Shown here piece after piece: positions 26,837 through 57,049 of a DNA stretch of 64,000 bases. The stretch is from Ceratodon purpureus (Eukaryota > Streptophyta > Bryopsida > Pseudoditrichales > Ditrichaceae): contig CM026421.1 in the NCBI GenBank assembly GCA_014871385.1, positions 19,994,544 to 20,058,543 of the forward strand, in the 5' to 3' direction. The notes below the pieces were generated by a model. That model was not told the origin of the DNA and searched no databases. It saw only the letters and a list, made by a program, of their open reading frames with translations. Position numbers and translations under genes: made by a program. Each line of letters opens with the position of its first letter. The stretch's first letter is position 1.

Positions 26837-26869
26837 GGGGGGAAGCACAATAAAGTGAACCAGAAAGTG
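26837..26869 (+). repeat. Left terminal inverted repeat of giant element copy 1
   Basis: Six G residues then AAGCACAATAAAGTGAACC, an A-rich step and AAGTGC. The last part differs by one base and one A from the right end. AAAGTGAA inside it recurs through the element. Confidence 0.85.
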
Positions 26870-27569
26870 CAAAATGTGACCAGATCAAAGTGAATTCGCA
26901 GTGGCCTGTTTGGGTACAGTGGGAACTCTTGGGAACGCTTGGGAGCGTGGAAGGTGGTTGAACTGCGATATAAGAGAGTAGGGTTTAGAGTGACACTTGT
27001 TGCAAGGGTTTAGGGGTGGACACGGAAGCCAAAATTGTGCGTCTTCATTGTGGGGGATCCCGCGAAGATGAGTTGTGAATGCTCCGCAGCCAGTTCAGTG
27101 CTTCAACCTGATGAGCCCCTTTTCCAAGGGAGGCGAATTGATGCAGTCAGGTGCGTATCCGGCGTCATTTATGTTAAAGAGGGTCTATGCAAAATTGTTC
27201 GGGATAGGTTGCGCCAAGTAGTATTCACCATCACTTGGAAGGGTCACTTCACTGTCTAGCCACTTTCCGGAACCTGAAGGTAGTTGCAGGAAGAAAGTTC
27301 TTTCGGGAGAGTTCGTGGCCGAGAAGGGTGGGGAAGAATTGGAATGCTGAGCGTTGAAGAGTTGATTGACTGATCTCGGGGTTTGCATGCCTAGATTCAC
27401 CGTCGTAGCAATTAGAAGACGAAGACATCATCCGTTGCAGGGGTGTCTGGATACAGGGTTCGCTAGCCAGTGGATCAGGGTTTACCCAAGTTAGGGTTCG
27501 GTGCTTGCGAATGCACATGCAGGATCTTGCATGCGACAGGAGAAACTAGTCGTATAGATTAGCTACGCC

Positions 27570-30500
27570 ATGGCCACAGTGAAACGGGAGTTGGCTACTA
27601 CCCTCCCCAAATCTGATGCAGACCTGAACAGGAAACAGGGGGAGAGGATCAAGTTTGCAAAAGGACTCCACTTACGGTGTAGGTGGTCTGTGTAGGATTT
27701 TGCAGAGCACCTGGAGCTAGAGGACGTGGGCATTTGCGGAAAGACAGAATGTGGAACGACACATATCAGCGAAAACCATTTCAAGAGGGTGTTTCCAAAT
27801 AAAGGAGGCAGTGGGCTGAAAGTGGTTGCGAATGAATTCATCACGGAGGCTGAGTGCGGTACAATCTGGCAGAAGTATTTTCTAATGTACAACCATGCAC
27901 CTCCCAACAAGGAGTTTGCTCGTTATTTTTTGAGGAGCTGGTTGGCGGAGAAGGAGGGGAAGTGTAAGATTAATTGGGCCAAATTTGCCCATGACATTTG
28001 TCGCAAGCAGTACATTGCGTGGCAGAAGGATGGAAGAGTGGAGGAGGCCCTACACTCAAAGTGGGATGAGCTTCAGGGAATTCCATGTTTGGAGAATTTA
28101 GGGCACAGTGCGAGTCAAGGTGGGGATCAACGCCAGCTTGGAGCAACGTGCGAGCCCGCTTCTTGGACCGAGGAGCAGAGTTCGGAGGTTCTTCAGATGT
28201 TGGAGGATGCCGAAGGAGACGCTGGCGGGATTGGGCCAAAGATGTGAGTGATGCGTTCGTTACCTTATCCTTTGTTGATCGCTTATTCATCTGTGGAACA
28301 ATCACCGAAAACGACATGCGTAGAAAGCTTGAAATGTTTTATGTCCTCTGTGCATACCTTGCATTGTTCAGTCCGGTTTTCAATGGTTGTTCTGCGGTGT
28401 CCATGATAAAGCTCGCTTGGTTGGTAAATGTCCGATTGGGGATGAGTATCATGCTGTGGTACTTGTTAAAGGTTTTGTGGTTTTTACTGTCTGTTACGGG
28501 ACAGGTGCTCGGAATGGATACGGTCTGGGGTGTGTTACTTGCTTGAATTTAACATGTTCTGTAATGTACTCACAAACATGCGCAGATCAAGTGGGGGTTG
28601 ATGTTCTTCAGTAAGCGTGAATAATAGTCTTGTTCCGGTTAATGTAATATGTGATTTTAGGTTTAGGTCATGGACACAGCCAGATGCGAGTAGTACGCAT
28701 TGAAACGGAATTATCAGTTCTGGTCCTCAGTCTTCACATACATGGAGTTATTAAATGAAACGAAGGAGTTCTAATGACATCATGAAACTCGTCTCCATGT
28801 CCCAGATTAAAGGTCCCGATCAACATTAAATGAAACGATCATGTGTCCATGAACAGCTTTGCAGTTTTTATGATAGGCTCGTTGGCCAGATAATATGAGC
28901 GTAGCCCGTAATCTATAGAAGCTAACTTTGAAAAGAATTTACAACAGCGCCTGAACCATAATAGAAGCAGAGGGTCCTGACGTAACCCAGCAGATTGGGA
29001 ATGCTTCCGAAATTTCTTGAAGTTGCGGAGCCCTAGAATAGTGAATGTCACCTTCTGTTTGCACAATTCGGTAGATCATTTCATGGTTACCACCTTGAGC
29101 CACCCTGAGTCACGTCCAGGATCCTTGGACTGTGTTTCAAGGCCACATCATAATTGAAGGATTTGCGGTTTTCTCTTACAATTAAGCTAGATTGTAAGTT
29201 TTGGTGGCTTGTAATCAGATCACAGATGCATCTGATTCGAGAGATCAAGACGTCACATGTTTCTTGAACGGTCACCTAGTACTTGACAGAGGTTTTTGGG
29301 AGGATGAGAGGATGTGCTAATCCTACTCACCTCCAAGCTCGGTGCTAAAGGTAAGCCCTGTGTCTGGAATGAGGGATTTCGATTCTTTAATTTAGAGGGG
29401 AGCATTAAGTATGAAAAGTCCGAAGACTACTGATACAATAGGTCATTATCCCATCGTAAGTTTATTGCATAAATTTTTCCGGACCAATAGCTTTGTCTAC
29501 AGGGATTTAGGGAGCGTTTTGTTCAAGCGCATAAGAAACATGTTTCCGAGTTTTTTAGCACGAAGGTTTGCGAAGTCCAGCGCGAGGGTACCGGGATAGT
29601 TGAACGCCTTCGACAGCAGCCGCTCATTCCAGAGAGCGATGCTGGACACCCTTTGACCGGATCAGCTTCGAAGGACAGAACAGATGTGGTACGGTACCGG
29701 AGCATTTTACTTCGGTGATTAGAGAAGACACGTGTAGCTCTGTTTCGGAGTTGATGGTTCTGATACCCTATTGTATCTGAGTTTCAAGGTGATAGTATAG
29801 ATTCAGGGTCTATTAGCAATTCTTTAATGCATCCCTTGTCAACGTCGAAATGGCAGATGACAAGGTCGACAAGGTTTTTCTCGGAATGTATGTTCTCTTT
29901 CATGGAAATCGGACTATGCTCGTACAGTGGTAGTCAATGAGTATTATATGTGCAACAACGTTTACCGAAACTTGACTGCACATTTGAGCGTCGTAACTCC
30001 TCTCTCCCTCATGTATTACTGAATTATGCTCCTGCTCAACGTCGTCATGAGCCTTCACCATGCTGAAGTCTGCACTGAGCTTGGGAACTTGCTTTGGTCA
30101 GGGTTAGAAGCACCTTGGGGGACAAACAGGTCTGGCTGGTAAGTTTTAAGTGCCACAATCGCCGCATTGGTTAGGACGTTCTCTGGAGTCTTTGATTAAT
30201 TTGGGGGGCACATTTGGATTCGGTGACGCAGTGGATAACACGGTTTGAGTGTGCGGACATGTCTGCGTACCCGACACATTCTGTGATTTCTCCATACTCA
30301 GGTAAGAGCTGAAAGGGACGCATTTGAACTGAGGATGATAGGCTCCGAATTTCTTCCTGACCACTGCAGAGTAATGATGCATGTCGGCAATGACTCTCGC
30401 CGGGATGACAGACGTCTGTGATTCGTTCACTAAATAGTACACAGCCCGAAGTTGATGCGACACAAGGGCACACACCGCGAGTGCACATGCTATAATGCCC

Positions 30501-33500
30501 AGAAATGCTGTTTTCAAGCATGTGTTCCCCCCCGTCTGGGGAGAAGTGTGTCCGGGTGGTAGTGGAAATGCCGCACTTCGATTTTGGTGACACGTACTGT
30601 CTACTAGGGAACATACCTCATCTGTGTTTCGCATACCTGTGCTGTAGATGCATACTAGAGGAGCGGAGCAAGGACCTCCAACAGCAGCGCAAGGGAGTTG
30701 ATGGTGCCCTAGCGGAACGCCTGAAGTCTTTGAGAGAGGAAGAGCTCAGCTGCGCCAACATGAGGAGCCGTCGTGACAGTTTGGTGGCGCATTTCAATTC
30801 CATTAGAGATGCCGGGGATTCAGGGGATAATGGCGAAGACAGAATTGAAGAAACCTGCGAAGAGGAGGATGAGGAGCTGAGGCGGATCGACAAGGACTTG
30901 GAATTCGGAGTTCACATACTCAATCGGGAGAGTGCCCGCACTGAGGTGCTGAGATTCGAACAAGAGGGGCTACAGACGGAGCTCAATAAGGTTGAGCATG
31001 AGATCCGCGTACGAGGGACGCAGTCAACTCGATTGGACATGTGGGTGGGGAAATTAACCGAGCAAGTACAGATGATGGCTGTGGGCTCCGGCATGGGGAC
31101 TACTCCACTCCCAATTCGAAATCCACGGGTCCCTACGGATGGACGAGCTCTGGTTATCAGAGTGAAAAATTGCCCGGTTTGTGGCTTTAACTTTGCCCGA
31201 CACAACATCTCTGTTGCGGACTGCAGTTGCTGCTATCATCACTTTTGTCTCGCTGCTTGGTTGAGTGACGGTAAAAGGAGGTGCGCAAATGTGAATTGCG
31301 AAATGGAGTTCAGCGCAGATTGGTTGGATAGCTTCGGTGCAAATCAAATCCGACTTCCAGCACTTCGGCAGCCGAAAGTAGAAGGACAAGTCAGTCGATT
31401 CAACGGGCGCGACGGTGGGAATGTTGCAGCTGCGGCGTCAACCAACTGTAAGTTCCTCAACCAACTGTAAGTTCCGCAAATGGCTTCGTCATGTGTGTTC
31501 CAACTTGAGGTTCCTTGTTAGTAACCTCAAGGATATGGTTGCTATCATCCGGAGGGAATTGTAACGGACATCTGCGGCCACGTTGATCTGGGGATTCTGG
31601 ACAGTAGTGTGTACGTCACTTTTTTCATACAGTGGTTGTTTTCACCTTCTGAATTTCCGGTTGGGCATCCTTGTGACTTACTTTTCGGTATAGCAGAACC
31701 CTTCACTGGTATTTCTCTAGGGATATAGTGTAACGCCCACTGTCTCCCTTGCTTTTGTCCTGGTGTGCCACGTTTTCCGGGGCTGTTGCTATGGACTTTG
31801 TTCAATTGATCTGCTTCATAGAGCCCGTACAGATGTAGAATGTGCAGTTCTGAAAGCGAAGTGGTTCACTGGCCGGGGAGGTGAGATCAGTGCTTTCGCA
31901 GTAAGTTACACCCTTAATCGTGGTCGGTGATGCCTGTCATGGATGCGTTAGCACTGCTCGACCATAAAAGTGCTTTCGGCAGTGCCTTCCTTCGGTATGA
32001 TCGGTATGCTTGAGTTTATTTCACGTGCAAGTGCTGTATCACTTTGGTTTTCTGGGCTAAACCTCTCAGTCCTTACGCAGAGTGACGAGGCGTCCGGAAT
32101 GTTAGGAATTTCACTGTGTTCATGTCAAGAGATTTCACGTTCACTTTCCAAGTCACTGTCGCTGTAATAGCACATCGACTCCAGTTTGATACGGGCATTA
32201 GGGTGGGCCGCTTTGGTGACTCTTTCTTCTCACTTAACCACTTTCAATTCACTAAGGAATAGTGGATTTTTTTTGTGGACATGAGGTGCGGTCGCTGAGG
32301 ACTTGCTTTCTATGGTGACGGGTACTGAGCAGCAGATCACAAGGTTCACTAGTACATAGTAAACCTTCGGTCACTGCGATATTACTTGAAACAGATGAAG
32401 TTCACTTTCCAAGAGAGATTCACTACGGTAGCACTGCGAATCCAGTTTCATCCGGACATTTCGGTGAAACGCTTTGGTGACCGTTTCTTTTCACTTACTC
32501 ACTTTCAATTCACTAAGGCTTACTGAATTGAATTTTTTAATTCTGTTTCTTTTTGCGACTGCATGAATTTTTACTCGGACTCAATAATGCGCAGAGCAGA
32601 GTGAGCATTGATAACTCACAGAGTATGTGATTGCTTGTGTAGTTCACGTGGGGTCGGCGTCAGGGACACCATCGTCGCTGAAGCAGAAGAGTGTGGTGAC
32701 GCCTTCTTCGGGAGAAGCGAAGACCCATGCGTCTCCGAGTTGGAAGACGCCGACGTCCACTGTGGGAAGGGTAGCCGGTGAAAGCAGAGCAGGACGTTTG
32801 GATGCACTGGCTTGCGGTACCCCTCCAGCGGTGAATGCATCTGGGACACCGTCACTGCTGACTGAGCCACTATCCACAAAGACGTCCGACGAAAGCATAC
32901 TCTTCCCGGATAAAGAAGAGCTCCGCTTCAGTCAGCCACAACGGCCTTCCCATGCGACTCCTGAGCGTGGAGACGGAATTATACAGAGCACTCTGATCCC
33001 GGAGACATTACCGGACACCGCTTTGGGGGTGGGAGAAGATGACGACATTCCACCATCCTCCACCGGCAAAGTGCCATCAACCACTACGATGAGTGAGGGA
33101 ACTCATAGGGCAACGTCGCATTCCGCCGAGGAGGATCCAGAAACTGACATGGCAGGAACCGATTGCCAAGTACTTGACATGGACACGGTGCACTCGGGAA
33201 AACAGGCGGTGGCTGAGGAGTCACCAACTGTTGGGAAGTCCTCAGGTAAAGGAACGGGGTCTGTCGGGACGCGACGGCAGGCGGCCTTGCGAAATAAGCT
33301 CTGTCCCTCGCCGGGTGCCACTACGGGGACATCAGGTCACGGAGGGTTGGTGCAAGGGGCTAAGAAGCCAATGTTAGGGCGAGGACGTGCAGGCCAGGGC
33401 GTGACAAGGGCAGAGAAGGGGTGCAATATGAAGCCATTGGCCGAAATTGGAGTGCAAGAGAAATTCAAAGCACCAGCTGCGGTTGCTGATGCAGGGAAAG

Positions 33501-33556
33501 GTCGAGGTCGCGGAGGGAATCAGGCAAAGCGCAAGCGCGAGGGAAGTATGCCGTAG
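27570..33556 (+). CDS. Element gene 1: coiled-coil protein with Cys/His zinc cluster and basic tail
   Basis: Three exons join in phase (27570-28243, 30648-31447 and 32643-33556) to 796 codons. The first exon encodes a Trp- and Lys-rich domain, including WQKYFLMYNHAPPNKEFARY. The second encodes a long charged coiled coil and then a cluster CPVCGFNF, C-S-C-C-Y-H-H-F-C and C-A-N-V-N-C, ending in ADWLDSFG (about residues 399-455), which looks like a RING/PHD-type metal fold. The third is Ser/Thr/Pro-rich and ends in a basic, nuclear-localisation-like KGRGRGGNQAKRKREG. The ATG at 27570 leads to an in-frame TAG at 27693-27695 (codon 42). Either this copy is broken there, or the first coding exon really starts after the TAG at an acceptor GTGTAG with an unseen upstream exon. 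I recall coiled-coil/zinc-cluster proteins of this general look in non-seed plants, but I cannot name the family. Confidence 0.6.
31500..32640. repeat. TTCACT-rich block inside intron 2 of element gene 1
   Basis: The part from 31,890 to 32,530 carries many copies of TTCACT, AGTGAA and GTGCTTT. It includes two diverged copies of a segment with CACTTTCCAAG, GATTCACT and TTTCAATTCACTAAGG (near 32,140-32,270 and 32,400-32,520). The same core, AAAGTGAA, is in the terminal repeats, so these may be transposase-binding subterminal-type repeats. Confidence 0.5.
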
Positions 33557-35081
33557 AGTATCTCTAATGTGGCAAAGTGAGTGACTACATGTTCCAAATT
33601 TTGAGACTGTATCGTCTACAGCGTAACATGTGATATGCAGACGACAGCTACATCAAACGATGCAATTTTGGGTTCAGGATAGTGTCAGAGGACTCCGGAC
33701 GGTTTTAAATGCGACGGGTCTCAATGTCCAGATTGGTCACGAGGTCAAGTATACATGTGTATGAATGGTTTTTTTTTTTTGGGGGGATTGGACATATGAA
33801 TACGATCACAGGAGTTAACGGTATTTCAATACTAGGTATTTTTTGTTCATTTGTATATCCGGCATGGCACTGAGGCTTGGCGTGTATTAATGACCTGTAT
33901 AAATATATAAAATATGTGCATTTACTGAACAAAAACTCAAGATCTGCAGATGGTATTCTTGGTTCGGTATTACTGTGCCTTCTTATTTGTTTTTAGGGAT
34001 TTTATGCATAAGAAGGGGAAGACGGATGTCACGCATAGACTACTGAGTTCAGGTTAGGAGACAAGTCTTGCTATCTGTATCATAGTTGAGGTGGTATGCC
34101 GCGAGTAGTTTATTCTAATATATCTGTGACGACTTTTCAGCGCTTGGTGCCTGTATGTAATTGTCCGTGCATGTTGTATATAAATTCGGACAGGCGAGAC
34201 CGATGCAGGAACCTTGGTTTTCGATGAGTCATTGACATCGACAAACAATTCGATGGAAGGGAGAAGGAGACGGAGATTATACTGAGAAATCAGAAGAACA
34301 GAGCGTGCAGAGGGTTCACGCACTTGAGAATTTGCTGGCGAATGGAAGATCGAAACCGTGTACCTGAGGCAAGCTGTGATTGGTGAAGCGCTGTCAATGC
34401 AGACTCAGAATATTCTCAAGACATGTCCATGAGTTTCTGAAGGAGAAGCTGTTCCAAGTGTGTACTTCAAGAGGAAAGCTCGTTCATGTTTTGATATGCT
34501 GGAGGGACAGGGAGGCATTGTTTCTTGCTTTGGCTGGCGTCCTATATCCCCGGAGTCTATTTAAATCATGTGTAGTTATTGCTGGAGAATAGGTTTGTTC
34601 AATGACTTACTGCTGGTTACTTTACTCTAGATCCGAATTCTGGTTCCAGTTTGTAAGGTGTTCGTGACTGACCTTGACTCTTCTTACATATAGGCATGAA
34701 GGTTACTGCTATTGTAAGTGAACAAGAGAAGATAAATGCTACTCTAAGCTATCACAAGTGACAAGCAGATCATTTGAGAACTGATATAGCTGCGATGACG
34801 AGCAGGGGTTTTTTGCTCTTTGTACATCTGCCAAACCTTTACTGTATACGTATATGTTTATAATCATCAACGACATAAGTTCTTTCGCTCACGCCAGATA
34901 AAGTTTTCCCAAGCCCCTGTCAATTTCAAATAATAAAATTGGTAAAATAATGGGCATCAAGTAATATCAACTGCATTGCGACGGCAGGTCACATAATTGA
35001 ACGGTATATTCAGGACTCTATTCTGCGAATGACATTTGCTTGAGGGTTGTAATGCTTAAGTTTTAGTTCTGTTGGCTACAG
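33557..35081. other. Element interior without a supported gene
   Basis: AT-rich, with a short T/G-run near 33,770. ORFs of 70-90 codons have no family likeness. It could hold the 3' untranslated region of element gene 1. Confidence 0.5.
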
Positions 35082-37230
35082 GCAAACGGATGCGGAAACC
35101 TGTTCATCGGAGAACTGTCGATTACAGCTCTACAGATGTGCGCTATATCCAGGTATTTGGCCAGACTGTCGTTGATGCTTCTTGCATTCCTGTGATTATT
35201 GGAGACAATCTTCGGAGAGCCACATGTATCTTATTCCTGTGAGATCTTTGCATTATTTTAGGTTGAAAGCCCATTATTAATAGAAAGCAAGACTTTAGGC
35301 TGGAACTTTCTTTTCGTAATCAATATATTTTAGAGATTTGTATTTGAATAGGGTCGGAAGAGAATTGAAGGGGTTTAGGGTTTTCCGTCAGGAAGAGTCG
35401 CACGTGCTAAACTGTGCGTTAATTTTTCAGAATCGAACCTGGCAACGCGATTGTCAGGATGCCCCTGCATTGCAGCCTACCTGCTGCTGTCGACGTAAGC
35501 AACCTCTTGTTCCATGAGTTCAGTGATAAGCAGATTTTGCATTCACAGTCATGTGTTTTCACTTTTAGGGCTTTCCGGGGCTCTGAATGTTCTATCTCAG
35601 TGATCACTGACTCGTATGATCCTTGATGTTGATGAATTTCTTTGAAACAGATGCTTCCGACGGCAGCGTATCCTGATAACCCTGCCACCAGTTTCACCAC
35701 GAAGTTCGTGCACCCGTCAACAAATAAAGTGCGGTGTTCAATCAATCGAGTGTTGGTAAAGTCCTCTGAAGTTTAACTATGATTTTGATTACTTTTCAAC
35801 GGCGCTTCATCCACGCACTGATTTTATGTTGATAGTGTTTATTATTTAGGTCGAGATGGTTTCTTAATGGTTTGTCTGTGTCTGAGTTCGGATGTTTTCG
35901 ATGAGTTGCTTCCAGAAGTTGAGTTCATCAAAACTATGTACTGATAGCTCTAATTGATTTCAGTGGACCCCCAATGGTCGGAGGCTGATAACAGGATCAC
36001 AAAGTGGAGAGTTCACACTCTGGAAAACTGCACACAAAGAAGCAGTGCGGGACTTGAGGTACACACTAACGCATCGAACAAAGCATGATTCAGTATTAAC
36101 TGACACCTGAATGTATCTAATTTCATTATTTTAGAGAGTTCAGTTGCGGTGCCCATTTGATTCTTCCGATTGCTGTAAGGCGTTTCGCTGCTAGCCAACT
36201 CATCGTCAAGCAAGAGTTAGAGGGGCGGCTGTAAAGTTGATCGTTCTGCGCTAGAGTAGTTATTGATACTGCTCTTCTTGCACAGACATGGCCAGAAAAA
36301 TACAGTTTTATCAGTAAAATGGAATAGCAACGGCAACTGGGTGCTGACTGCATCTCGGGATCATTACATTAAGGTATCATCCTCAGCTTTGGTGGGCGTA
36401 AATTGATACTAGTGGGATTTCTTATTATTCAAAGAAAGTGTGCCATTTTTCTGATGATTTCTTTTGTTTTGACAGCTGTACGATATCCGCACTTTGAAGG
36501 AATTGGAGTCCTATCGAGGGCATCGGAAGGAAGTCACATGTATGTCATCTACTTTAACAGCTTATTATTTAACAGTTTTGTGTGGAACATTCCTGTACAG
36601 TTGGTTACTTCATGGGTTATTTTTTGGCTTATACGAGCTTCCTTTTGCCTTGATACAGCCTTGGCTTGGCATCCATTCCATGAGGACCTTTTTGTCAGCG
36701 GAAGTTATGATGGTAGCATTATCCATTGGCTTGTGGGGTGAGAACCAAACCTTATTCCTTCTACAGCAGTTCATCATTTACGGTTAAGCAACAATATATC
36801 CAATAGTTCCTGTGTATATTTCCTGCCTGAAATCTGTTCATTTTGTGTTTTGGGGTTTATAATAGACATGAAGGACCGCAAGCAGAAGTAGCAAATGCAC
36901 ATGAAAGCAGCGTCTGGGATCAGGCTTGGCATCGTATGGGGCATATTTTATGCAGGTACTGTTCTCTTTTTAGCTGTTTCTGTTCCACTAGTATGTATTC
37001 AATGCCAAGCAACTATGTTCAATTGGATTTTAAGGCAATAAAGTCAACGTATGCGTTAACTCTTATCAATTGCAAAGGGAATAGAGTATTAAAAATGTAT
37101 TTTTTTTAAAGTTGGACTCCTTTCTGTATCTGACAGTGGAAGTAACGACCACACCACAAAATTCTGGTGCCGCAATCGCCCTGGGGAGACCCTGCGGGAC
37201 AACCGAGAGAGCAAGCACTCATAATCAAGG
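35082..37230 (+). pseudogene. FY: FY-type WD40 polyadenylation factor, internally deleted copy
   Basis: FY (Pfs2/WDR33 family) is a WD40 subunit of the mRNA 3'-end processing complex. Conserved exons with splice sites are visible: 35082-35152 (KRMRKPVHRRTVDYSSTDVR), about 35430-35490 (NRTWQRD), 35651-35754 ([11 protein letters not shown]), about 35965-36056 ([16 protein letters not shown]), 36290-36373 ([19 protein letters not shown]), 36475-36539, 36657-36738 ([18 protein letters not shown]), 36869-36955 and 37135-37215 ([19 protein letters not shown]). About 50 codons are missing between FTLW and [10 protein letters not shown]. The region at 36,130-36,290 does not give the expected next repeats. 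The exon near 35,430 is two bases short of the family frame. The reading stops at KHS soon after the last WD repeat, and the long C-terminal region is absent. It lies inside the giant element and keeps introns, so it was copied as DNA. Confidence 0.85.
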
Positions 37231-37928
37231 TAAATTTGACGGAATAAGGAAGTTCTCTATTTGAAAAGAGAAATGAATATGCATTTATTCTGGCTTTTAT
37301 TTACAACTGTGTTGCGGGACTGTAGATCTCCTGGACTCTTTTTCCTAAATACGGCATTTAAATTTATATTGTGTATGGTGGAAGCAGGCGCAGGTGCAAA
37401 TGATTCGCAGTTACAGGTTCATTTCTTAATGATTGTATGACAAACTTGCAACTTTGAAACCACACTAATATTTATAAAAGTTTTTTTCCAAGAGGCCAGG
37501 AATATGGGGGCTGATGGAGACAGGTGTGTGTCAACCTCAAATGACTCTGACCTGATGCTGTCTGGGTTCTGATTCCATCATGAAGCTGTAGGGTTGTTTT
37601 CGTATTATTAGCCTTCCACTCTCCCTAATTACCATTTTCCGACAAGGAAGTGGCTTGACGGGACTTAGGCCTAATCGATTTGATAGACCAAGTGATCATG
37701 GTGGGCTGTCAGGCAGGCTGACAGTCACCTCGCAGCCGTCTTCTCCATCCTCCTACCTGGTTCTTCTTCCAGAACGAAGGTACGCGAATTGTATGCAGCT
37801 ACGTCCTCCTTCCGTTTTCCTTTGAGCTGCTCTGTTGTTACAGTTTCACCTCCCTCGCGCCTCAGTTCTCCCAAGCTCTTGTCCTACGCCCTCTGCTGTT
37901 GTCGTTGGCCCTTGTAGTTTCCGCAGCC

Positions 37929-38486
37929 ATGTCTGACCTTCGCTGGATCGTAGATTGTGCGAGACACAAGCGAGGCTGCTTCGACATTGTGGCGTGCCAT
38001 GTTTTAATTGATCACGTACTGGAGTTCGCCTGTGCTCCCGCAGATCCCTGGGTTGTCATCGATCGGCTCAACGTTGATAGCAGCCTGCTGTTGGAGCTCA
38101 TACCGAAACTTTCGTGCTTGTCGAAGGAGTGGAACGCAGCGATGAGGTCCCGGGTAGAGTACAATGCCTTGCGCGCTGCTCCATCCCTGCGCAATTTCCA
38201 TTTGCCTGTTGACGGTAGAAAGTGGCTGCTTCACCGCCGGGGAAATCGGTTGGCGGAGTTTCATACCGCCGTCGCAGTCTTCAGCAAATCCTGGTCATTC
38301 ACGACCCCTCTGCCGATGAGGATTCGGACGCAGCCCCTGGGGGAGCTCCTGAACTCCGAGCTGAACTCCCTGCTTGCATTCCTCATGAGTGGGTGGACTC
38401 TGGAGGTGCACGTGATCCCAGGAGATGGGCAGGAGGAGCTAGAGACTGTCTGGGTCACGCCGGATCAGCGCTCCAAGCGCTTCTGA
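37929..38486 (+). CDS. Possible F-box-like protein
   Basis: An open frame of 185 codons starts at the ATG at 37929 (another in-frame ATG lies 30 bases upstream). The segment LLLELIPKLSCLSKEWNAAM resembles an F-box core, which would link a substrate to an SCF ubiquitin ligase. The rest has no repeat domain that I recognise, and the protein is short for an F-box protein. The upstream CT-rich leader looks like a plant 5' untranslated region. It may be another captured gene or a fragment. Confidence 0.4.
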   Translation: MSDLRWIVDCARHKRGCFDIVACHVLIDHVLEFACAPADPWVVIDRLNVDSSLLLELIPKLSCLSKEWNAAMRSRVEYNALRAAPSLRNFHLPVDGRKWLLHRRGNRLAEFHTAVAVFSKSWSFTTPLPMRIRTQPLGELLNSELNSLLAFLMSGWTLEVHVIPGDGQEELETVWVTPDQRSKRF

Positions 38487-41972: not shown

Positions 41973-42068
41973 TGCTCCACGGCCTGTACAGGAGGGAATC
42001 GACGAAACGTCTAGCGGAGAGGAAGAAGGAAGTGCTCTTGCAAGGATATGGACAAGCAATGCAAGCAC

Positions 42069-42862
42069 TCTGCTGGGCCCTCTCTACTTATACGCCAATG
42101 TGTGTGTACAAGTTGGGCTAGGGCAATGAGGCAATGAAGTAATGACCAAATCCGCCCACCGATTGCACTCATAGCTAATCCGTCGCGTCAAGAGTGAATT
42201 AGGGCTGCGACATAATGACAGTGACGAGGACTGTGGGGAAAAAAAATTAACCCGTCACTTCAACAGCTGCAGTAGCACTTACCCATTCCTCAGTACCAAG
42301 ACAGCCTGCGTTCAGAACTTGGGACGCAGCTGTGCTCAGTGAATTTTGCTCCTAGCTCTAGTCCGCATTCTCCACATCCATGTCGTTTTCTCCATCTCCA
42401 GAACGGAATGAGGGATTTCACCGACAGAGGACAACATATGGGAGTTCCTGCCCACCTTCGGCAATGGCGTGCATGCAAACGGGGAATCCAAAAACAAACA
42501 CGGTCAGAAATAAATGGAGCCAAATCCACTCGAGTAACGAAGTCACAGAAGACCGTATACTGCGATTACTGATATGGGAATGCCATTGCCGGGGACCCCA
42601 TAAATCTTGCTGTCAAAAATCAAGATGGGGGACCTAACAAACCAACCCTGGCCGATCAAAACAGTACAACAATCCGCAACAACAATAACACACCCTGAAA
42701 CCTAGTGATTTACCCCCCAAACAGACGAGACAAACACAAGTGTTGACAACGCCTTTGTGATCACTCCCGAAAACTCATCGTACAAAAACCATCCTAGTAA
42801 ATAAAAGTAAACAGCGTGCAGATGCAACTCGGATTCAATGGATTCGAAGAAGAAAGTCATAC
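42069..42862. other. Element interior, no gene recognised
   Basis: Short overlapping ORFs only. The region lies between the start of the B3 gene and the last recognisable VPS53 exon. Confidence 0.4.
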
Positions 42863-43965
42863 CTGTTCTTCAGACATGTCTATGCTTTCTGAGAAGTGGG
42901 AATCAATAAGCTTTGCAATATTGTCGCCCATATTGGCAGCCTGCCCAAGAACAATTCCGAAACATTAGAGTAAATTCGTTCTAGAAACGTCTAGATTTGC
43001 TTTTTCGGTATTCGGCAGGTAGATGATTGACACAAACGACTTTGCACTATGACAAGACATCCCACATGATTCAATGTCACAACGTAACACATTTTAAAGC
43101 ATGAACAGTATGCATTCCGCATTAGGAACCTTGCATAAGCTTGTAGCAGAAGCATTTTTTAGAACTCCAGAAACATCAAAGAAACACGCAAATAAACAGG
43201 TCGATTCTAAACCCAGAATGACCAAGTAAGCAGAGCACGTAGGAAACCATGACGTACCGTCTCGTGGCAGTACTCTGCTGTATTAACAATATAGCAGATA
43301 ACTCTCTCATCTTTATCTGAGACCTGAATTGCACAGAAACTAAGGATTAGTGCACCGAAACCGAAACATAGAACAGAAATCATGTTCCTAGAGTATTATA
43401 GCAACAACTTCATGCTCGAGCACTATTGACATGGAAACAGATAATACCTTGACTTGCCCCTCAGTGCCACTTACGAGACCAGGGTGACCTCTAGTCATGT
43501 CCGCAACAAGTTTCCCAGCATATGCTCGAAGAACTCGCTGGAACACCTGCTTCAAATGAAATTTAATTTCCAGTGGCCGAAATTAATAAGAAATCAAATT
43601 CTTCCAAACTCCAGGTCCATATTCAAATCAACCAGTAGTTGCACAGTAACCCAGCCAACCTGATTACCTAAACCACAAATAAGGTAATGAAGAGCACCTG
43701 CTACAAGTTGCAGAGCGTTTGATAGCGGGTGAGTGCACTGCAGCGCTTCAAGCTTCTTGTAATGATCAAAAACACCTGCGCAGGGAAGTCTATGGGCGAT
43801 ACTAAAGTGCGTCTTAAAAGTCGCACGCATTAAAAAAGCAAGGTGTGCCAACTTAAGCTTCGGAGACTGCAAATTTGTCAAGCTACATGCACCAGAAAGA
43901 CAAACCTGTGTGCCACTGGCTAAGATATGACTTTGGGTCCCTTCTTCAGATTCCCACGTCTCTTC
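42863..43965 (-). pseudogene. VPS53: VPS53 fragment, five exons with a premature stop
   Basis: VPS53 is a subunit of the GARP/EARP complex that tethers endosome-derived vesicles at the trans-Golgi. Five exons are visible on the minus strand: 43906-43965 (EETWESEEGTQSHI), 43698-43775 (ITRSLKRCSALTRYQTL), 43448-43546 (VFQRVLRAYAGKL), 43258-43323 (SDKDERVICYIVNTAEYCHE) and 42863-42940 (MSEEQ at its end). They correspond to the middle of the protein, roughly one fifth of its length. TAG at 43701-43703 stands in frame near the end of the second exon, where the family has an F-K pair. Flanking VPS53 exons are absent on both sides. Introns are retained, so this is a genomic capture. Confidence 0.87.
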
Positions 43966-47288: not shown

Positions 47289-50200
47289 TCAATGAGCATT
47301 ATACATTTGCCTCTCCTCGACATTGGAGAGAATTGCTTCTCTAGTTTCTGGCGTCATCTTGAATCTTGGATTCTTCTTGGCGCTTTTGTATTGCATCAAC
47401 TCAACCCTAGACTGCACGACAAGGTGCGAGTAGTTCCATGCCTTCGGCTCATCCTCTAGGAGCTCGTACCTGTAGGATCCGGCGTCTCGTCCCACACTAG
47501 GAAGTCTCCTGTAATACGTCCCGCTGATCAGCATTGTATCCCTTGGCCATTTACACCCCCAGCCGTCAGTGAAGGTGGCTCCATTTTTGTGGACAGGCAT
47601 GTCGCAGAGCACCAGGAAGAAGCGGTCTCCGTGCTCAGGTCTGTCGGTATAGACGACGTATGTGTCCCCTGTCTCGACCCGCTGTGCCTCACTTTCCAAT
47701 TCACACTCGTCCTCAACGTCGTAATCTAGGTCGTCCTCGAACTCCGCAGTCCCATGTTCCACGTCTTCTTCGGTGCCCTGCCCTCGATCGTCTCCCCTGT
47801 TAATCTGGATCTCCCCCAGCGGTAACGTACCTCGCGGTTCACTGGTTTCACCACCGTGTTCACTAGCTCGTTGGAGCCGCGTCCCTTGTCCCATGCTCTA
47901 CCTCATTGTCGACATGCACATTCCACATGTTAGGAATTGGTGGAGGTAATCAGTAAGTGTTATTCTACAATAGCAAGCCTAAATCACATTACAACATGAA
48001 AACGTAAACTCTAAACTCTTTTGAGCGTTCACCATGCAGCACAAAGTCGGCAAACACATCTACTGATTTCAGTCCAAGAAATTCACAGCGATGAACGCGA
48101 AGTACGGGCGCGAATGAAATTGCTGAAACTGTCTCCCTCCTAACAATCCTTATCCATTGTACATTCCCGGCCTTCCCGTGCTGCCTACCACTTCCCCTAA
48201 ATCCTCTGTCCATCGACTTTCCTCACCCCAGTCTTAAATTTATTCTGCCACTCCGAACATGCCACGGTGCTGGTCCGCACCCTTAGCTCGTCCATGCTCT
48301 CAAATTACGTCATTTGAATGAACTCTCACACATCAAATTTTTAAAATAACCCAGGGCTACAGACAGTCAGACGTAGCCTTCGATTAAGGAAAAAACAGAA
48401 TTCGCACCATATACCACGGCATGCCTGTGGCCCTTAAAATGCACAGCAAGCATCTAGTCGGTGTGTAACTTCGCTGTACACTCATCCGGCTAGGTTTAGT
48501 ACGAAGTCAAAGAAAACGAACACAAAAACGGGCTCGCAGGAATCCACTGACTGTCCTACCAAGTTACTCACCTGAATTGGCGTCAACGGTTGCAAGACCT
48601 TAAGGGCCCAATGTTTCACGTGATTTTGCCTTCCACAGAACATCGGGTTGTCGTCCATGCACTCTGGACAGAAGCAGCTTAGTTCTCGGACATGTAAGTA
48701 CGTAACATTGATCGGTGACACAGAAGAAACGGAATGGACTGATCTAGTGCCAGGTACGGGTTGACAGTCTAGGTCACGTGTTCTATCCACGTCATTTGGC
48801 CCGATCAAATGGAAGTACCGTATGAGAGTTCTCCGAGCCTTTCCGTATGCCCTGTGCTCTTCAAACTCCTTGCGGTTGCAGAAGTCAACGACATCAGCCG
48901 CAGTCTGAAGCTTCGTACGGGATCCGAAGTTCATTTCCTCGTTGCGGAGTGCACACTTTAACATTGCCCCTGCTCCATCATGGAGCCCCTTGCCATGTCC
49001 ACTGCCAAAGTAAGACCATACCATCCTACACCCATTTGGTAGATCAGCACTCATTGTCGTGGAGGGATACCTGCAGAGAAAGCAACCAAAAACTGAATTT
49101 ACTTATCTTCCTCAGCAGTTTCGAAACCGGCAGATGGAAAATACAGACAAGACAGAATTTGTGATAGATAGAAATACCTTGAGACGTGGTACCAGCATCT
49201 CCGAGACTTGAACTGTGCTGCGCACCCGTCTGACCAAACAATGTGCTCGTTTGGTTTTATTCCCCTATCCGTTATGTGTTGCCAATGCAACGCAAAACAA
49301 TGTTGCACAAACAGAGTATCGTGCTCAGCATCATCACTAATATAGTAGTGGTATTCTGTCAGAAGTTTAGGGGCATCAGAACTCGGATCTGCTAGATAAC
49401 ACGGGTTCCACCTGTAGCATATGTGGACCAGTATAGTAATCTGGTGCTGGAGCCAGTGCATGGACTGAAGTTCATTGTAAGGCTGGAAAGTGTAGTTCTC
49501 CGCGAAATCCACAGCTGATAGTATAGATTCAGGAGGGAAGGTGTCGATGGACTCTTTGTACCGCTCCGCCTGCCACTTGGCGGTGTAGTTGTGCAGGATG
49601 AATGGTCCTAACTTCAGCCTGAGGTAGTCCAAATAGAGTGGAGCAGCAGTATTCTGGTACGTCATACGCAATACTTTGTTCTCTTTACCTGCCTTAGTCA
49701 CGCCGTGCACCACCATTTCGAAGTTGTGCCACTGCACCTTGAGCGTCCCTTCACTGTCCCTCTCCCTTGGGCATAACATTAACATATCCACTCCACAACG
49801 CTCGCACTCACCCTTGATACAACTCTGTGCATGCCAGCCGTCTCCCTCCAATGGACAGAGCACGCTGTGCCAAAGGTCCGTCAATCCACTGAAATGCGAT
49901 AGATCTGCATGGCACCTGCTCCGCTGATCCTCGCCAGTTGACTCTCCTGTTTGCGGGCTCACGCACACCTCACATTGACATGTGCAGTGACTACCATGTA
50001 TTCCCTTTGTGGCAGTCCGCATGTTGTTCCAACCCTGTCTGAGTTCCGCCATTTCACAATGGTACCGGCATGCACATGTGTTCCTTTCTTTCAACCTTCT
50101 CACGTAAAATGGCTTCAAGAGTTCGAAAGCCCGCAGCCCCACCTGATTGTGTTCGCTGGCCTCGGTGTACTTCGCATGGAACTCCAACTGCCAACCACGT

Positions 50201-52381
50201 AACATGAGTTAGCTATAATCTGTTCACGATCTTTGTCCTAGAACTTGAAGAAAACAGGCGGTGCAGGGGAGTTGAAGGTATAAATCATCCTACATTGTAA
50301 ATTATGGTTCTCTAGCTTCCACGCTAACTACATCTCAGTTGACCAGCACAAACTTCTTGCCTTCTGCAACTGTGACCAAGTGGAGGTTACGACTCAAGTA
50401 AGAGTTGCCGGCACTTATAATCATGGCCCCGGACATCCACGTGGACAGAACGCAGACACTTACAAACATTGCACCGAAACCAATTTTGACATGACAGTAC
50501 AGACCCAAACAGTCTGTTTTCAGCCGGCGGTGACGTGTCTACATTAGAGCGGAACGAAGACGATACTCTAATTTCCTAATATTAAGCCTATGGGAACAAC
50601 CTAGTACTTGAAGATTTAGCCCGGTCAAGAATTAAGAATTTGGGTTCAATGCACACTACTCGCAAGTGGCTATATCCATGTCCTAATACTACATATTACA
50701 GTGACAGTAGCAAAAGAGTTCTTTAAGTTTCTACGAGAACATCTACCACCATCTGCTTCGTGCAGTAGCATGACTACCTCACAGAACAAAGATGACAACG
50801 AAATAATCGCAACCAAATAAGACATAGCCAACCTTAGACAATCCGAACCCATGTCGCACAAGAGAACAGTTAAAAAATCGAACCTGAAACCTAGGTACAC
50901 CAGCGAATATATTCAAAGTTTCGGTTAACCACCAGAACAAAGCATTATCGTGGATGATCAAAACCGCCATTGACCATGTCATTGAACTTCGTAATGTCAC
51001 GTCTCCACAGCCAGACCATTAGTGCCACTATCTGATTGAAGTATGCAATGGATCTTTTCACGGAGCGTATGTCAGTCGCAGCGAGAGGGCCAGCATCGTG
51101 TGGCTTTTATCCGCGTAGGTAATTGGTGTTTTCAAACATAATATGAAAGCAATGAAAAGCGCAGTGACTTAAGTGCATGTGAAAACTGTACCTGGGACAC
51201 CTGCAAGTAGTGTGTGGCATGAGTATCATGCTCCTTTGCGGAAATCCTTCTTCTCTTGACATCCTTCTTGTTTGGAGAGACGGTGGTTTCCGTTTCCCAC
51301 CAAGAGCAAACCGCTCCTCGGACCTCTGGAGTAAGCGCGTCACTCCTTCGCTTTCTCTCCCCCCCCGCCCACAAGTTCTCACCAGTTTCATCCACTTGTG
51401 CTCGCCGTTGGAAAGCCTTTCGAACCAGGTACCGGGACGCCCCCAACGCATCGCAAATCTTCCGCTGCGAATCGCCCTTCGAGACTGCAGCAGTCAATAC
51501 AATATTTCTGACTTTTGTCTTTCCTTGGATATGTGTGTCACGGAGGTTTTGCAGCGCCCCTCTCAGACTTTGCACAGTTGTGGCAGCTACAGTGCGCAAC
51601 TTAAGAACAGTTGTCGATAACTCAGGGTCAATGCCTCTAATAAGATCATCTGCAAAACAACGGTGCAGGACCATCTTCTTCTCTTCCTCTGAGAAACCTG
51701 CATCCAGAACTTGCTTGAGGACCCTAAGAACCTTCGCAGCAGCATAAGCACACCTCCGGCCGCGTGGAGTGTCTTGTGTACACTCAATGTCTTGGACACC
51801 ATCAGCCGCCGACTCCGTCACCTGAGTCACGCCCTCCAAATCCTCGCCCGAGAAGTCTGCCCCACTCACTTCGCCTCCTCTTTCCCCCACCTCCCGATTG
51901 AGCTCCCACTGCCCTTCATCATCGTTCAAATCAACGGGGGGTTCTTCTCCAGACTCTCCCTGCGAACATCCTTCACCTGTATCATTCGGTATTGCAAACC
52001 GAAGTTGATCCTCCTGAACTCGGGTTCTCCATGTCCTGCGGTGCTCGCGCCGCTGTTCGACCCTGCAATGAGTTCGCACACTAAGAAGTTAACACCCATG
52101 TCACCTTCTGTTTAGGCCACCATCAGTCGCATTCTCTTAATCCAAAAAATATACCTTGTATGTCAAAAACAGAGTGCAATTTAGAGTCACAGACATTGAC
52201 ACTAGCATGAATGACACATCACTACGGGCAGCTGACGTCAAGAGCAGCACCTCAACACCCGAAGACGGTCCTGCTCCGCTCTCTCACGCAATTCTGTCTC
52301 TCGCCGTCGGCTCTCCTCCAGCATTAGTTCTCTCCTCCTCGGGACTGCATGCCTGCGATGCACATTTCTCTTGTTGCCCAT
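47289..52381 (-). CDS. Element gene 2: DDE/DDD-type transposase with HTH and Cys-rich regions
   Basis: Five exons join in phase to 1,039 residues: 52251-52381, 51192-52062, 49178-50187, 48572-49070 and 47289-47897. The N-terminus is Arg-rich (MGNKRNVHRRHAVPRRR). About residues 225-260 form a helix-turn-helix-like segment (VSKGDSQRKICDALGASRYL), suited to DNA binding. A Cys/His cluster follows (CACRYHC, HCTCQCEVC and CIKGECERC, about residues 371-470). The core has VDFAENYTFQPYNELQSMHW, IVWSDGCAAQFKSR and YFGSGHGKGLHDGAGAMLK, giving candidate acidic residues D561, D654 and D702 spaced like an RNase H-fold triad. I recall uncharacterised invertebrate proteins with very similar DFAENY, SDGAxxQ and HGKGxxDGxG blocks, but I cannot name the superfamily. 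No stop or frameshift is present. The ATG at 52381 is the first in frame. Confidence 0.8.
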
Positions 52382-52829
52382 AACTGTACGTGGTAAAAAA
52401 AGGGCTCCACACTTTCAGGGACTTCTTCTCCTGGGAACAACATGTTTGCAAGTCACACAACTGAGTCTTTAATCTTCGAAAAGTCTTAAGAAATGAACCT
52501 AATCGATTTGATAGATTCAAACAACTGGTAGTAAGTGTTGGAGATGGGCATGATCAAATACAGCTTGTCTAAAGTCACATGAACCTATCTACAAACTGAG
52601 ACAAGGCTAGCAATTTCACCTTCGCAGTTGATTGGATGATAACATGAGTGCCACGCACACCATAATCATGTCTATGACACAATCAACAAACATAGTTAAA
52701 CAATAGCGAACCATCTCTTTTTAGCTGAAAGAGAGAACACCCGTAAGACCAAAGTTCCTGTAGCACAGACCATAACCGAATTTTATCGTAGAATCAGATA
52801 CTCACTAGGCGAGGGAAACACGACATCAC
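52382..52829. other. Upstream flank of the transposase gene
   Basis: No gene seen. The transposase promoter is expected here. The boundary with captured host sequence lies somewhere before the first protease exon at 52,830. Confidence 0.4.
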
Positions 52830-53275
52830 CTAGTTGCTCCGCTGTTCGAAGTTGATGGAACACTTCACGTTTTGCAGCCAGCACGAAGAGCTCAAGAAGT
52901 ACATTCGTGTGTGTGTTATCCTGGCCAATCTGCGACTCCAGCTACAGCCAAGTATATAAGATGAAGCTCAACACTGGATATGGATAAGGACATTTCAACT
53001 GAAGTTTTCTTCTTCTCGTTTTTGGGTTTAGAGTCAGTGCAGAATTTGAGCGTACGCAAGCTGTACCTGGAAGTAAGTCTGCAGAGCTGAGTTCTCATCC
53101 TGAGGATTTGTTCCAGCGATGGGATAGTACCAATCAGCCCCAGGTTCCAACTTAACAATTCTCTGCTCCGTATGCTGAGGTTGGAAGGGGGGTCTGGCCT
53201 TCACCAGAGGTCCTCCTGAAAGAATCTTCTCAATCTGCTCTACCAGGCCCTCAGCTTCGTCGGCCGTCAAATTCC
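52830..53275 (-). pseudogene. Insulin-degrading-type M16 metallopeptidase fragment
   Basis: Two exons, 53067-53275 and 52830-52929, are in phase on the minus strand. They encode ADWYYPIAGTNPQDENSALQ, TYFQ, IGQDNTHTNVLLELFVLAAK and EVFHQLRTAEQLG. This matches the second-half (non-catalytic clamshell) region of plant peroxisomal/cytosolic insulin-degrading-like proteases, which has the pattern NPSDENSAL, YFQIGQD and FHQLRTVEQLGY. Frames are open and the splice sites are normal, but the zinc-binding HxxEH half and the C-terminus are missing. Another captured fragment inside the giant element. Confidence 0.85.
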
Positions 53276-53989
53276 CTGGAAACAACTCAGAATTTTAGTT
53301 TGTTTCCACGAAAACTTGGCTAAGAATCTGCCGAAGAACGAAATGTTACTAAGTAGTAGACCCGAGAAACCTTCCTACAGTCAATGAGTAACTCTTCCTC
53401 CAGTTTGACAATAGGAAAGAAATGAAGACTTTTTAAATCCTCTTAAAATCTGCCTCAAATGTGGTCGACCTAAATATAATTGTGAAACGCATACCTCCAA
53501 TAAAGCACTCTCGAAAATCCGTGACAGCATGCGAGGGAAAATTGCAGTCAAATCTCGGCCCTCTACGACTCAAGGGCCAACTGATATTTTTTCCTTTGAC
53601 ATATTTAAACAGCACGTATCATAAGAGCTTTTATCAGGATGTTTTATATGAAATCTTCTTATTTAAACCAAGTTCAGCCCCTTATGCGTTCAAATTAATG
53701 ACACCTATTTCAGATTTCCATCGTTATCCTTGTATGGTTATATTTCTGTAATGTTTGTACAGTTACATGCTTTTGCGATGCTAATAATCCAGACGCCACT
53801 TTTATTTGCCGAAACTAACATTCCGTGAATTTTTGATGTATCTATATGACCGTATGCAACGCATTGGTTCGGAGTTCGAGAACGTCCGTGTGTCGTAGTA
53901 AGGAAAGTATCCATGACTACTATTCTCCCACGAGCACTAACTAGAGTAGAATCAGCCATCAGACATATAGAACAAAAGCACTGAGCGGT
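53276..53989. other. Gap between the protease and SMC3 fragments
   Basis: AT-rich; short ORFs only. The inverted repeat with the right-hand element copy is already established at 53,990 and may continue to the left, but the partner lies outside the window. Confidence 0.4.
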
Positions 53990-54039
53990 TAACGTGAATC
54001 TGATAAGATAGGGATGGAAATAGAGGCATGATATATTAC

Positions 54040-55340
54040 CTCTCAATCGCATCAGACGGCAAGGATCCCAGGTCACGAATCTTCCTCATCAAGTCTTCTC
54101 GTTTAGCTTGAAGGAGATTACGCGTACTCAATAATTGCTCCAGCTCTTTAGATTCATCTTGCAGTGTGAGTTCATATTTGTCCTCAGAACCCTGACAATA
54201 CAAAGAACTGTTCATGAACTAACCTCAATCATCAACAACAAGACTTCTCTCGGCAAATGCTACTCATTGTAGTGCAGCTGTGACCAAGATCACCGTACAC
54301 CACCAAAATGTAGGAAATGTTACTGATTACCTCCACCTCCAATACGTGCGAATGACTCGAATCATAAAAATATTTAACTACATCGACCACTGACTTGAGC
54401 ACCTGAAGTTTTTCCGTCCCATTTTTCAATTCCCGAATTCTCTTCGAAGGCTTCTCAATCGGGTCAGTCACCGCTGGTAACGCAAACAATACAACGTCAG
54501 TAAGCGAGTCAACTGCTAAACAAGTGCAAAAGAAATGCACGCATTACGTTGTTGAGCACCTTTTCGTCAACATTTCAACAGAAAATTAAATATGCAGACA
54601 TTGTAACAAGGCAAATGGCACCTACACTTCAGATGGCGCAGAGCTTCGTGTACAGCGTTCTTGGCTTCCTTCAGCTCTTGTTTTCTAAGATCCACTTCCT
54701 GGAGACTCCCCTATTATCAGGTCCAGCTAACTGACCCTGCAGCTCCTGTTGCCTCTTTTCAAGATTTGATGAAAGTAGTGTCTCCGAGGTCTCTCTTCAT
54801 GGTCTCAGCCTGTGACCAAAGAACAAGAATATTATACTTCCGATTCCAGGGAACATACTGAGCACCACAGTCGAGATCGCACTTAATCTACACCCACCTT
54901 CTTAGAAGACAACAATGGCCAGAGTTCATACTTATACGAATTTTCTTGTTCACGCAGAAGCAACATATGTACCCCAAAACTTCATGTCAAAATTCCTCTT
55001 CAATGTGCATCTGCTTAAACCAATAGGTTGTAAATTAACCCTAGCGGCCCTCCATTTTTTCACCCATCAATTGTACACATTTGTTTGTTCCATGTATGAA
55101 GGTCAGATTATGCTGTGAGTATGCTCGGGCCAAATAGTACGTTGCCAAACTAATCCTATTCAGCACAGATGAATGAGTGACCCACTACTGTACCTATAAC
55201 ATCATAGAAAGGAAGAATCATACGCCCGTCCGACGACCTTGGCAATCAAGAAGTTGTTTCTTCACCTCCCATCGAAGCAATGCCTGCTCTTTGGGCCTGA
55301 ACCTGGTTATGAGCTGTGGCAAGCAACCGTTTCTGCACAT
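54040..55340 (-). pseudogene. SMC3: SMC3 cohesin subunit, coiled-coil fragment (left copy)
   Basis: SMC3 is the cohesin ATPase that holds sister chromatids together. On the minus strand the exon 54040-54191 encodes LQDESKELEQLLSTRNLLQ, KREDLMRKIRDLGSLPSD and AIER, which fits the late coiled coil of plant SMC3 (pattern ELEQxLSKRNLL and KKIRELGxLPSDAFE). Further upstream pieces encode SSNLEKRQQELQGQL and DLRKQELKEAKNAVHEAL (54,620-54,810) and LLATAHNQVQAQRAGIASM (near 55,300). The middle pieces need at least two frameshifts, and an in-frame TGA follows the frame-one reading, so this is a dead fragment. No ATPase head is present in the window. The region is copied in mirror image at 62,650-63,950. 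Confidence 0.8.
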
Positions 55341-57016
55341 CACAAATTGGTATTTATCGTTTAGCACACGTCATCGGTATTAGTTCAGGACCTCGTGTTG
55401 TCACATCTAAAATACCACTTAAGAAGGAACCAGAGAAACGCCCATCACATTTTTGATGGCGACACGCTAAATATGGAACACAGTATACCAGATAGAATCT
55501 TAGAGAAGCTCAACAACAAAGCCCATTGAAAGTAAGATACAAACCGAGAATATTACCTACACATGAACAAACACGTAGCACGAATGAGGAAGATTCTGGA
55601 AGAATCAATACCTTCTATGTTGAGACATCATACCTTAAACGCCACAGTGGAAAACGAATTCGTAGGATGCGAGTACTGCTCCCCTTCGGCGAAACCCTAA
55701 ACCATGAGAAGACGAACATGAGTATACAGCAATGGATTTAAGTACGCCTGAACTCAATTCATAATCGGACTTGACAACTCCATTATGAATCCTTCAAGCT
55801 CAAAACTACGGGCGCGTTACAATTCCCTTATGCTCCCAGTCAATATTTCTTCCTGACCGTAGCCTTCGGCAGCAACGCCCACAACATTACCCACCTCAAA
55901 AGTGGCATGAACTTCGGATATGGACAAACACTCAAAGCTCGAATTCCTGAAGCTCATTTGTGTTACTTGTTGTATCACGTTGGAAACTTGCTTACCTCAT
56001 GTCCATTAGAAGACGCGGCCGCCTCTCCCTCCATCAGAAGCCCTCTTCATGCGCTCCATCGCACTCCACTGAGACTCGATCACGCCAAGCTCCCTAAACC
56101 CTAATTTCCAGCGAAGACTAAAATCCAGGAATCCATACCTCCAGTCCTCACATTCGCCGCACTATCGGAGCCGCGGCCTCAGACTTGCACTGGATTCGGT
56201 CGGCACCAAATGAGTATTTTCCGCCGCCTCCTCCAGTTGATTACCTCCCACGTGAGGGTCCACTCCACCGAGGCTCTTCATTAAAAGTAGCATTTTCCAA
56301 CATTGATTACCATCGAACATTTTCTTACAAATGAAGACGTTCAGACCTTCTACTTGACGACTGTACCATCGCCTGACACCCTTTCATGTCTTGCAGGATC
56401 GACAGAACTGCATTCATTGGAAACACTAAAGACGTTCCCATGATACTGTTGAACATACGGTTATGACGTGGCAGTAGTCCACAGCACTTGCATTCCACTA
56501 GCACTTTTTTCACAGTGAATTTACTGTAAAATGTCCATTTTTAATTTAATTATTTTTCACTTTTTTTTTCCCCAAGAACTCACAGTCTTCAGGAACATCC
56601 GGAAAGAATATTGAAATTTTGAAAAAGATAAATTAAAGATCCCCAAAAGTTTCGTTGAAAACACTGTCCTGAAAACGTCGGAACGACACTTTTAGCCCAT
56701 CCGAGGTTCCAAAGTACTGAAACAGATACATTTACTAAACCCTATTTCAAAAGCGGGGTGCATAGCGAAATTAAAAGTGATATCGGACAAAACCCTAAAC
56801 CGTTCTGTTCACTTTTCGAAACGAGTCAGTTCACTTTGCCTGACTTTGACATCTCCGTTTTCCATTGTAAACTCAATATCTTTTCTCGCAACTTTGGGAA
56901 GTTGAAGAAGATCAAGTCTACTTTCCGTATCCCAAACTTAATTTTGCATCGACATAACATAGATCCCACTTTCTCTAGTGTTTACGGAAGGGGCTGAAAT
57001 TGGTGAAAAGATAAGC
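55341..57016. other. Right subterminal region of the giant element, no gene recognised
   Basis: The region includes a plant-leader-like stretch with AAACCCTAA near 56,095 and a GCC-rich block near 56,010-56,200, possibly the 5' end of another captured gene that I cannot name. From 56,740 to 57,049 it becomes rich in AAAGTGA and TTCACTT motifs close to the terminus. Confidence 0.45.
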
Positions 57017-57049
57017 ACTTTTTTGGTTCACTTTATTGTGCTTCCCCCC
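57017..57049 (-). repeat. Right terminal inverted repeat of giant element copy 1
   Basis: Reverse complement of the left end: GCACTTTTTTGGTTCACTTT then ATTGTGCTTCCCCCC. It is followed directly by ACCA and the exon of an unrecognised gene. Confidence 0.88.

Follow-up and report, generated by a model that had tools for sequence, protein, structure and literature searches.

A recently mobile 30-kb inverted-repeat DNA transposon carrying its own genes and host DNA in the moss Ceratodon purpureus

The window analysed here, the whole stretch of 64,000 nucleotides at C1:19994544-20058543 of the moss Ceratodon purpureus, contains a DNA transposon of 30,213 bp (hereafter E1) and the beginning of a near-identical second copy (E2). 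E1 is a real, recently mobile element, several-fold longer than most of its kind, with inverted ends, genes of its own and pieces of host DNA; it belongs to a large family whose members bear several genes and acquire host gene fragments. Genome searches covered 362 Mb in 151 contigs. The element, its second copy and the target sequences around them are as follows (LTR, long terminal repeat).

26837..57049, plus strand: E1, whole element, 30,213 bp (inverted ends; second copy)
26837..26869, plus strand: left inverted end (repeat comparison; genome-wide end count)
57017..57049, minus strand: right inverted end (repeat comparison; genome-wide end count)
60941..64000, minus strand: E2, portion inside the window; the rest, interrupted by 10,000 N, reaches C1:20088864 (repeat comparison; adjoining sequence)
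26833..26836, plus strand: TTAT, one side of a duplication in a Ty3 element, with its partner at 60937-60940 on the minus strand (flank pairing; uninterrupted copies with one TTAT)
57050..57053, plus strand: ACCA, pairing with the flank past the far end of E2 (flank pairing)
23965..24158, plus strand: 5' LTR of the Ty3 element that is interrupted, with GTGCT on its outer side (repeat and flank comparison)
60375..60568, minus strand: 3' LTR of that Ty3 element in inverted orientation, with GTGCT on its outer side (repeat and flank comparison)

An inverted repeat of about 33 bp, starting with GGGGGG, runs inward from 26837 and from 57049, just as a sequence-only reading of this stretch had described. 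That reading proposed the end as a probe for further copies: a search on both strands with the 25-base end, allowing up to two mismatches, returned 962 occurrences on the plus strand and 932 on the minus strand, against 0 and 0 for a control in which the pattern was read backwards. The ends of E1 are therefore beyond chance. E2 is an inverted copy that occupies 60941-94321 (positions beyond 64000 continue the window numbering) and includes an internal run of exactly 10,000 N; within the window, the terminal 3,060 bp of E1 reappear in inverse orientation, from 60941 up to the window end. Aligned over 23,387 bp, the copies show six substitutions and six one-base gaps. Because E2 matches E1 over its full sequenced parts, the size of E1 is confirmed, and the near-identity of the two copies supports recent movement: they are so alike that, by sequence comparison, one is probably a recent derivative of the other, or both descend recently from a single source.

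Analysis of the flanks shows how the two copies came to lie here. As assembled, E1 has TTAT on its left and ACCA on its right, and E2, turned round, has ACCA and TTAT; the 4-bp duplication that had been claimed for the two ends of E1 is thus absent from them. The accompanying claim, that halves of a Ty3 integrase gene border E1 with a shared TTAT and compatible frame, holds when the flank beside E2 is used, but the sequence to the right of 57049 is not a Ty3 half. The second half lies at 60375-60940, on the opposite strand, where it adjoins the third end (60941), that of E2. Placing the left flank of E1 against the left flank of E2 in reversed orientation gives a shared TTAT and a Ty3 integrase frame that stays open through the join; the other pair of flanks has ACCA in common and likewise joins in an open frame. 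The flanks pair into two duplications, and therefore there were two insertions, at two sites, with the intervening 3.9-kb spacer turned. Both LTRs derive from one Ty3 insertion, since the same 5-bp GTGCT borders the outer side of each. The 236-bp TTAT join is present without interruption, at 100% identity, in two genome places (C1:20104386-20104621 and C1:20123862-20124097); a third uninterrupted match (93%) is on C9, and there are three weaker matches (71-74%, two partial). The two 236/236 stretches lie within about 100 kb of the interrupted one and are either recent local copies or part of a duplicated region.

Might E1 and E2 instead be a single insertion, doubled by local rearrangement or by the assembly? 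They stand 3.9 kb apart, inverted and about 99.9% alike, next to the run of exactly 10,000 N, all of which speaks for such a doubling; however, their four flanks are all different, the two 4-bp duplications that they form are not the same, each join leaves a frame open, and the TTAT site has uninterrupted copies, so that we regard a doubling as improbable. With two insertions, the spacer was turned either by recombination between the inverted copies or by an assembly flip beside the gap, and the data fit both equally.

Three related, decayed copies are found on the 110.5-Mb contig C6, which we take to be perhaps the sex chromosome, at C6:2491160, C6:80260557 and C6:87982579. Two have both ends, span 15,346 bp (TAAG duplication) and 22,760 bp (CAAT duplication), and contain, in unchanged order, parts of E1 with 72-89% DNA identity. 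Full-length copies of similar size with 4-bp duplications are what the sequence-only reading had named as support; these two are giant copies with such duplications, partly collinear with E1. The third is known from its left end (no right end turned up within 40 kb). Compared with one another, the C6 copies show 93-96% identity along most of what they share, and three segments of E1, of 6.2, 3.0 and 3.1 kb, are missing from them. What four further left ends, on C13, C9, C8 and C7, have in common with E1 is limited to its initial 350-430 bp and gene A (see below), at 76-81%; parts of gene B are additionally present at one of them. By their listed coordinates, two further elements would span 28,521 bp (C5) and 48,570 bp (C2). 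At the four other elements recovered with both ends, for which alone duplications can be checked, these are TAAG, CAAT, ATTG and AGAT.

The same ends and 4-bp duplications also occur on short elements of 737 and 740 bp. It had been considered that the ends might belong to short elements, with unrelated material between them from copy to copy: short elements do share the ends, yet giant copies with shared, ordered contents exist. We scored 40 left ends (604 candidates), with 106 of 112 transposase matches entered: a match facing the end lay 14,058-42,439 bp inside at 23 of the 40, one of the 40 had a match in the same orientation, and none was found on the outer side within 45 kb of any of the 40. 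Among the 17 left ends that lack a facing transposase are E2, whose corresponding stretch is hidden by the run of N, and the C6 copy of 15.3 kb, from which the gene is mostly gone. A patchwork of nested elements between chance or short-element ends, the alternative first put forward, draws on the short elements and on the three inner segments missing from the C6 copies, and for some inner sequence, these segments, it is right. As an account of the whole it is wrong, or at best very improbable: E2 repeats E1 as a block, the C6 copies hold the shared parts in the same order, and the transposase is spaced inside the ends rather than outside. The original proposal, that one self-contained giant transposon with inverted ends bears genes of its own as well as host cargo, is thus borne out by E2 and the second duplication formed by its flanks, the giant C6 copies, the uninterrupted TTAT site, the regular distance between end and transposase across the family and the donor genes described below.

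Four genes are conserved, as judged from comparisons among copies: they encode a transposase whose core is integrase-like, a coiled-coil/RING-like protein (gene B) and two unknown proteins (genes A and D). They are listed with the ratio of nonsynonymous to synonymous differences (pN/pS) where available.

27726..28247, plus strand: gene A, main conserved frame, unknown protein (distant copies; pN/pS 0.60)
30613..31446, plus strand: gene B exon, coiled coils and a RING-like Cys/His cluster, exon start uncertain (pN/pS 0.42)
32642..33556, plus strand: gene B exon, long tail (pN/pS 0.80, weak)
37899..38486, plus strand: gene D, conserved coding exon, unknown protein (genome matches; pN/pS 0.48 for 37725-38480)
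51189..52088, minus strand: transposase exon 1, approximate boundaries (sequence comparison, codon counts)
49165..50190, minus strand: transposase exon 2 (sequence comparison, codon counts)
48560..49072, minus strand: transposase exon 3 (sequence comparison, codon counts)
47292..47747, minus strand: transposase exon 4 (sequence comparison, codon counts)

The pN/pS values suggest that selection acts on the coding exons. Gene A retains 74-76% amino-acid identity in four distant copies, two of them nearly identical to each other. Gene D has matches of 0.9-1.3 kb at 28 other genome places (73-90%), and 37917-38479 is free of indels in all five copies compared; the preceding stretch, 37722-37898 (pN/pS 1.03), is probably not coding. 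For gene B relatives, Pfam RING families gave matches below the family cut-offs only, and the predicted structure (mean predicted local distance difference test score, pLDDT, 60.3) is good for the coiled coils only. A 130-bp direct repeat (77%) lies between the gene B exons, at 32139-32268 and 32400-32529. The transposase has three conserved aspartates at the expected places of an integrase-like core, two of them invariant and one present in at least 90% of 50 sequences, and its structure comparison (VIA-align, 50 rows) has retroviral integrases, IstA, Mos1 and SETMAR among the matches listed. Against Pfam, nothing scored above a cut-off for gene A, gene D or the transposase; NCBIfam gave nothing useful, and a transposase exon had no convincing counterpart among PDB sequences. 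A relationship to viruses or prokaryotes was considered and set aside: peptide-pattern matches (8 in IMG/VR, 11 in the GTDB set) came without any transposase relative by tblastn.

To which superfamily does this transposase belong? The sequence-only reading held that no common plant superfamily fits, and the 4-bp duplication is indeed unlike those of hAT, CACTA, Mutator and Mariner from its list; Sola, however, which was outside its list, has a 4-bp duplication, a transposase with three catalytic aspartates (DDD) and a moss host. Kyakuja-Dileera-Zisupton (KDZ) elements make an 8-bp duplication, against 4 bp here, and a Pfam search of three transposase sequences found no KDZ family. Mutator/Pack-MULE, hAT and CACTA elements make duplications of lengths other than 4 bp; these and Tc1-Mariner were rejected on duplication length. 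The Mariner duplication is 2 bp, TA (PMC10741241).

Elements of the same kind as E1 could also be driven by the transposase of another superfamily with 4-bp duplications, Ginger or Academ, or of an undescribed one. The integrase-like core is closest to retroviral integrases, as that of a Ginger enzyme would be, and Sola was chosen from published descriptions; but Ginger is marked by high similarity to Gypsy integrase, and Pfam, which covers integrase cores, finds no integrase family in the three transposase sequences up to E 1, the likeness to integrases being at fold level only. Moreover, the putative DDD triad and the 4-bp duplication fit the Sola description in the available published text, and another superfamily is accordingly possible but rather unlikely. 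The assignment of E1 to a giant Sola-type family, made by published descriptions, is probable. The available text of PMC10741241 gives the marks of Sola as a 4-bp duplication and a DDD transposase, with most elements of 2-9 kb and some above 15 kb; that of PMC9033089 lists Sola1 for Physcomitrella, and that of PMC3627910 describes Sola2 elements elsewhere with 4-bp duplications. Beyond the three conserved aspartates and moss occurrence, E1 shares with Sola, so far as these sources go, the 4-bp duplications (TTAT and ACCA by flank pairing, and those of the four other elements) and inverted ends, of about 33 bp, inside the Sola range of 11 to 1124 bp. It differs in size, 30 kb compared to mostly 2-9 kb, and in having a RING-like gene and genes A and D.

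Giant gene-carrying transposons are also found in fungi as Starship elements, but these are driven by a tyrosine recombinase, whereas E1 has an integrase-like, putative DDD core and inverted ends. In the brown alga Ectocarpus, according to the available text of PMC12477816, Sola1-1 reaches 21.5 kb and KDZ elements up to 30.3 kb, with accessory genes and nested insertions: like E1, these are giant DNA transposons with accessory genes in a host with a long haploid phase, but the accessory gene of Sola1-1 encodes a ParB/DNA methyltransferase protein, as opposed to the coiled-coil/RING-like protein, A and D of E1 (PMC12477816). Plant Pack-MULEs resemble E1 in holding captured host gene fragments between inverted ends; as far as the source describes them, they depend on a MuDR enzyme in trans, whereas E1 itself encodes a transposase, of another kind, and makes a 4-bp duplication (PMC6431247). 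Literature searches, with the Ceratodon genome paper outside their scope, recognised no published description of this family, and unpublished status is not claimed.

Captured host DNA lies in two parts of E1.

34515..34793, minus strand: SMC3 gene-region piece from C13, 93% (donor named from neighbouring exon)
34791..37415, plus strand: WDR33-like gene piece from C5, 96-98%, two internal deletions (genome match)
37415..37450, minus strand: 36-bp piece of the M16 peptidase donor (genome match)
52486..53565, plus strand: M16 peptidase gene piece from C7, 94% (genome match)
53891..55615, plus strand: SMC3 gene-region piece from C13, 89-94% (genome match)

The donors can thus be named on three chromosomes (C5, C7 and C13). 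The WDR33-like piece lacks 411 and 793 bp of the C5 donor and includes non-coding stretches between exons; frames of E1 within it match WDR33 (E 1.9e-6 and about 8e-4). At the C7 donor locus, the frames beside the matched stretch are those of an M16 peptidase, and the name SMC3 for the C13 donor rests on the exon adjoining the copied stretch. Since the identities to the donors differ, more than one capture is suggested. The two SMC3 pieces are neighbours in their donor gene, as are the two peptidase pieces in theirs, yet each pair is split, in opposite orientation, on both sides of the transposase-bearing core, and the core is oriented as in the C6 copies: this arrangement suggests that two or more inversions took place, or that repair copied from either side. 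Elements on C10, C13 and small scaffolds have part of the peptidase piece as well. A 3.0-kb stretch of E1 at 41044-44065 is absent from the C6 copies, and only 275 bp of it match a C9 copy (71%); beyond that match, no source was identified for 41044-44065, and 53566-53890 is likewise without an explanation.

Taken together, we consider it very probable that E1 is a cut-and-paste DNA transposon of giant size and autonomous type which takes up host DNA, its superfamily probably being Sola, and that after two insertions the spacer was turned. The transposase of E1 most likely binds the GGGGGGAAGCACAATAAAGTGAACC ends, and insertion into a 4-bp staggered cut would leave the 4-bp duplications. The coiled-coil/RING-like protein, A and D are probably helpers, by conjecture, of transposition or of escape from silencing; host fragments were probably taken up by gap repair after excision, which is again conjecture. 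One copy sits in the Ty3 element and another a few kb off, with the 3.9-kb spacer turned afterwards as set out above, and the element may still be active. Several observations count against this account: no duplication borders E1 as assembled, and E2 is cut by its gap of 10,000 N; gene A of E1 has an in-frame stop just upstream of its main frame, absent from E2; the C6 copies are decayed, with gene A broken in all three and stops in their transposase matches; Foldseek with the transposase gave 0 matches at E <= 0.001; and the Sola placement draws on published descriptions rather than on reference Sola proteins.

Elsewhere in the window, outside E1, inverted repeat arms of 49-200 bp, 85-94% alike and about 3 kb apart, lie at 12188-12623 and 15485-15877. 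An open frame at 8086-8640 on the minus strand presumably resembles a phage-type organellar RNA polymerase.

Relatives of the RING-like gene B stand in databases as ordinary moss proteins, which is a warning for annotation. In the available text of PMC12477816, giant DNA transposons with accessory genes are linked to long haploid phases in fungi and in algae of the green, red and brown groups, and a haploid lifestyle is proposed to benefit such elements. The moss family fits this pattern, with different accessory genes, and the possible inversion between E1 and E2 would be a cost of the kind predicted by haploid-life theory. A bolder proposal, which we hold as doubtful, is that E1 represents a separate lineage of giant transposons in land plants, one that requires the DDD transposase, the RING-like protein, A and D in order to move, captures host DNA serially, rearranges its own core, and thrives since a mainly haploid host makes recombination between giant copies less costly. 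With a large young family in a moss, the haploid-phase pattern would reach land plants, and a species amenable to culture and transformation.

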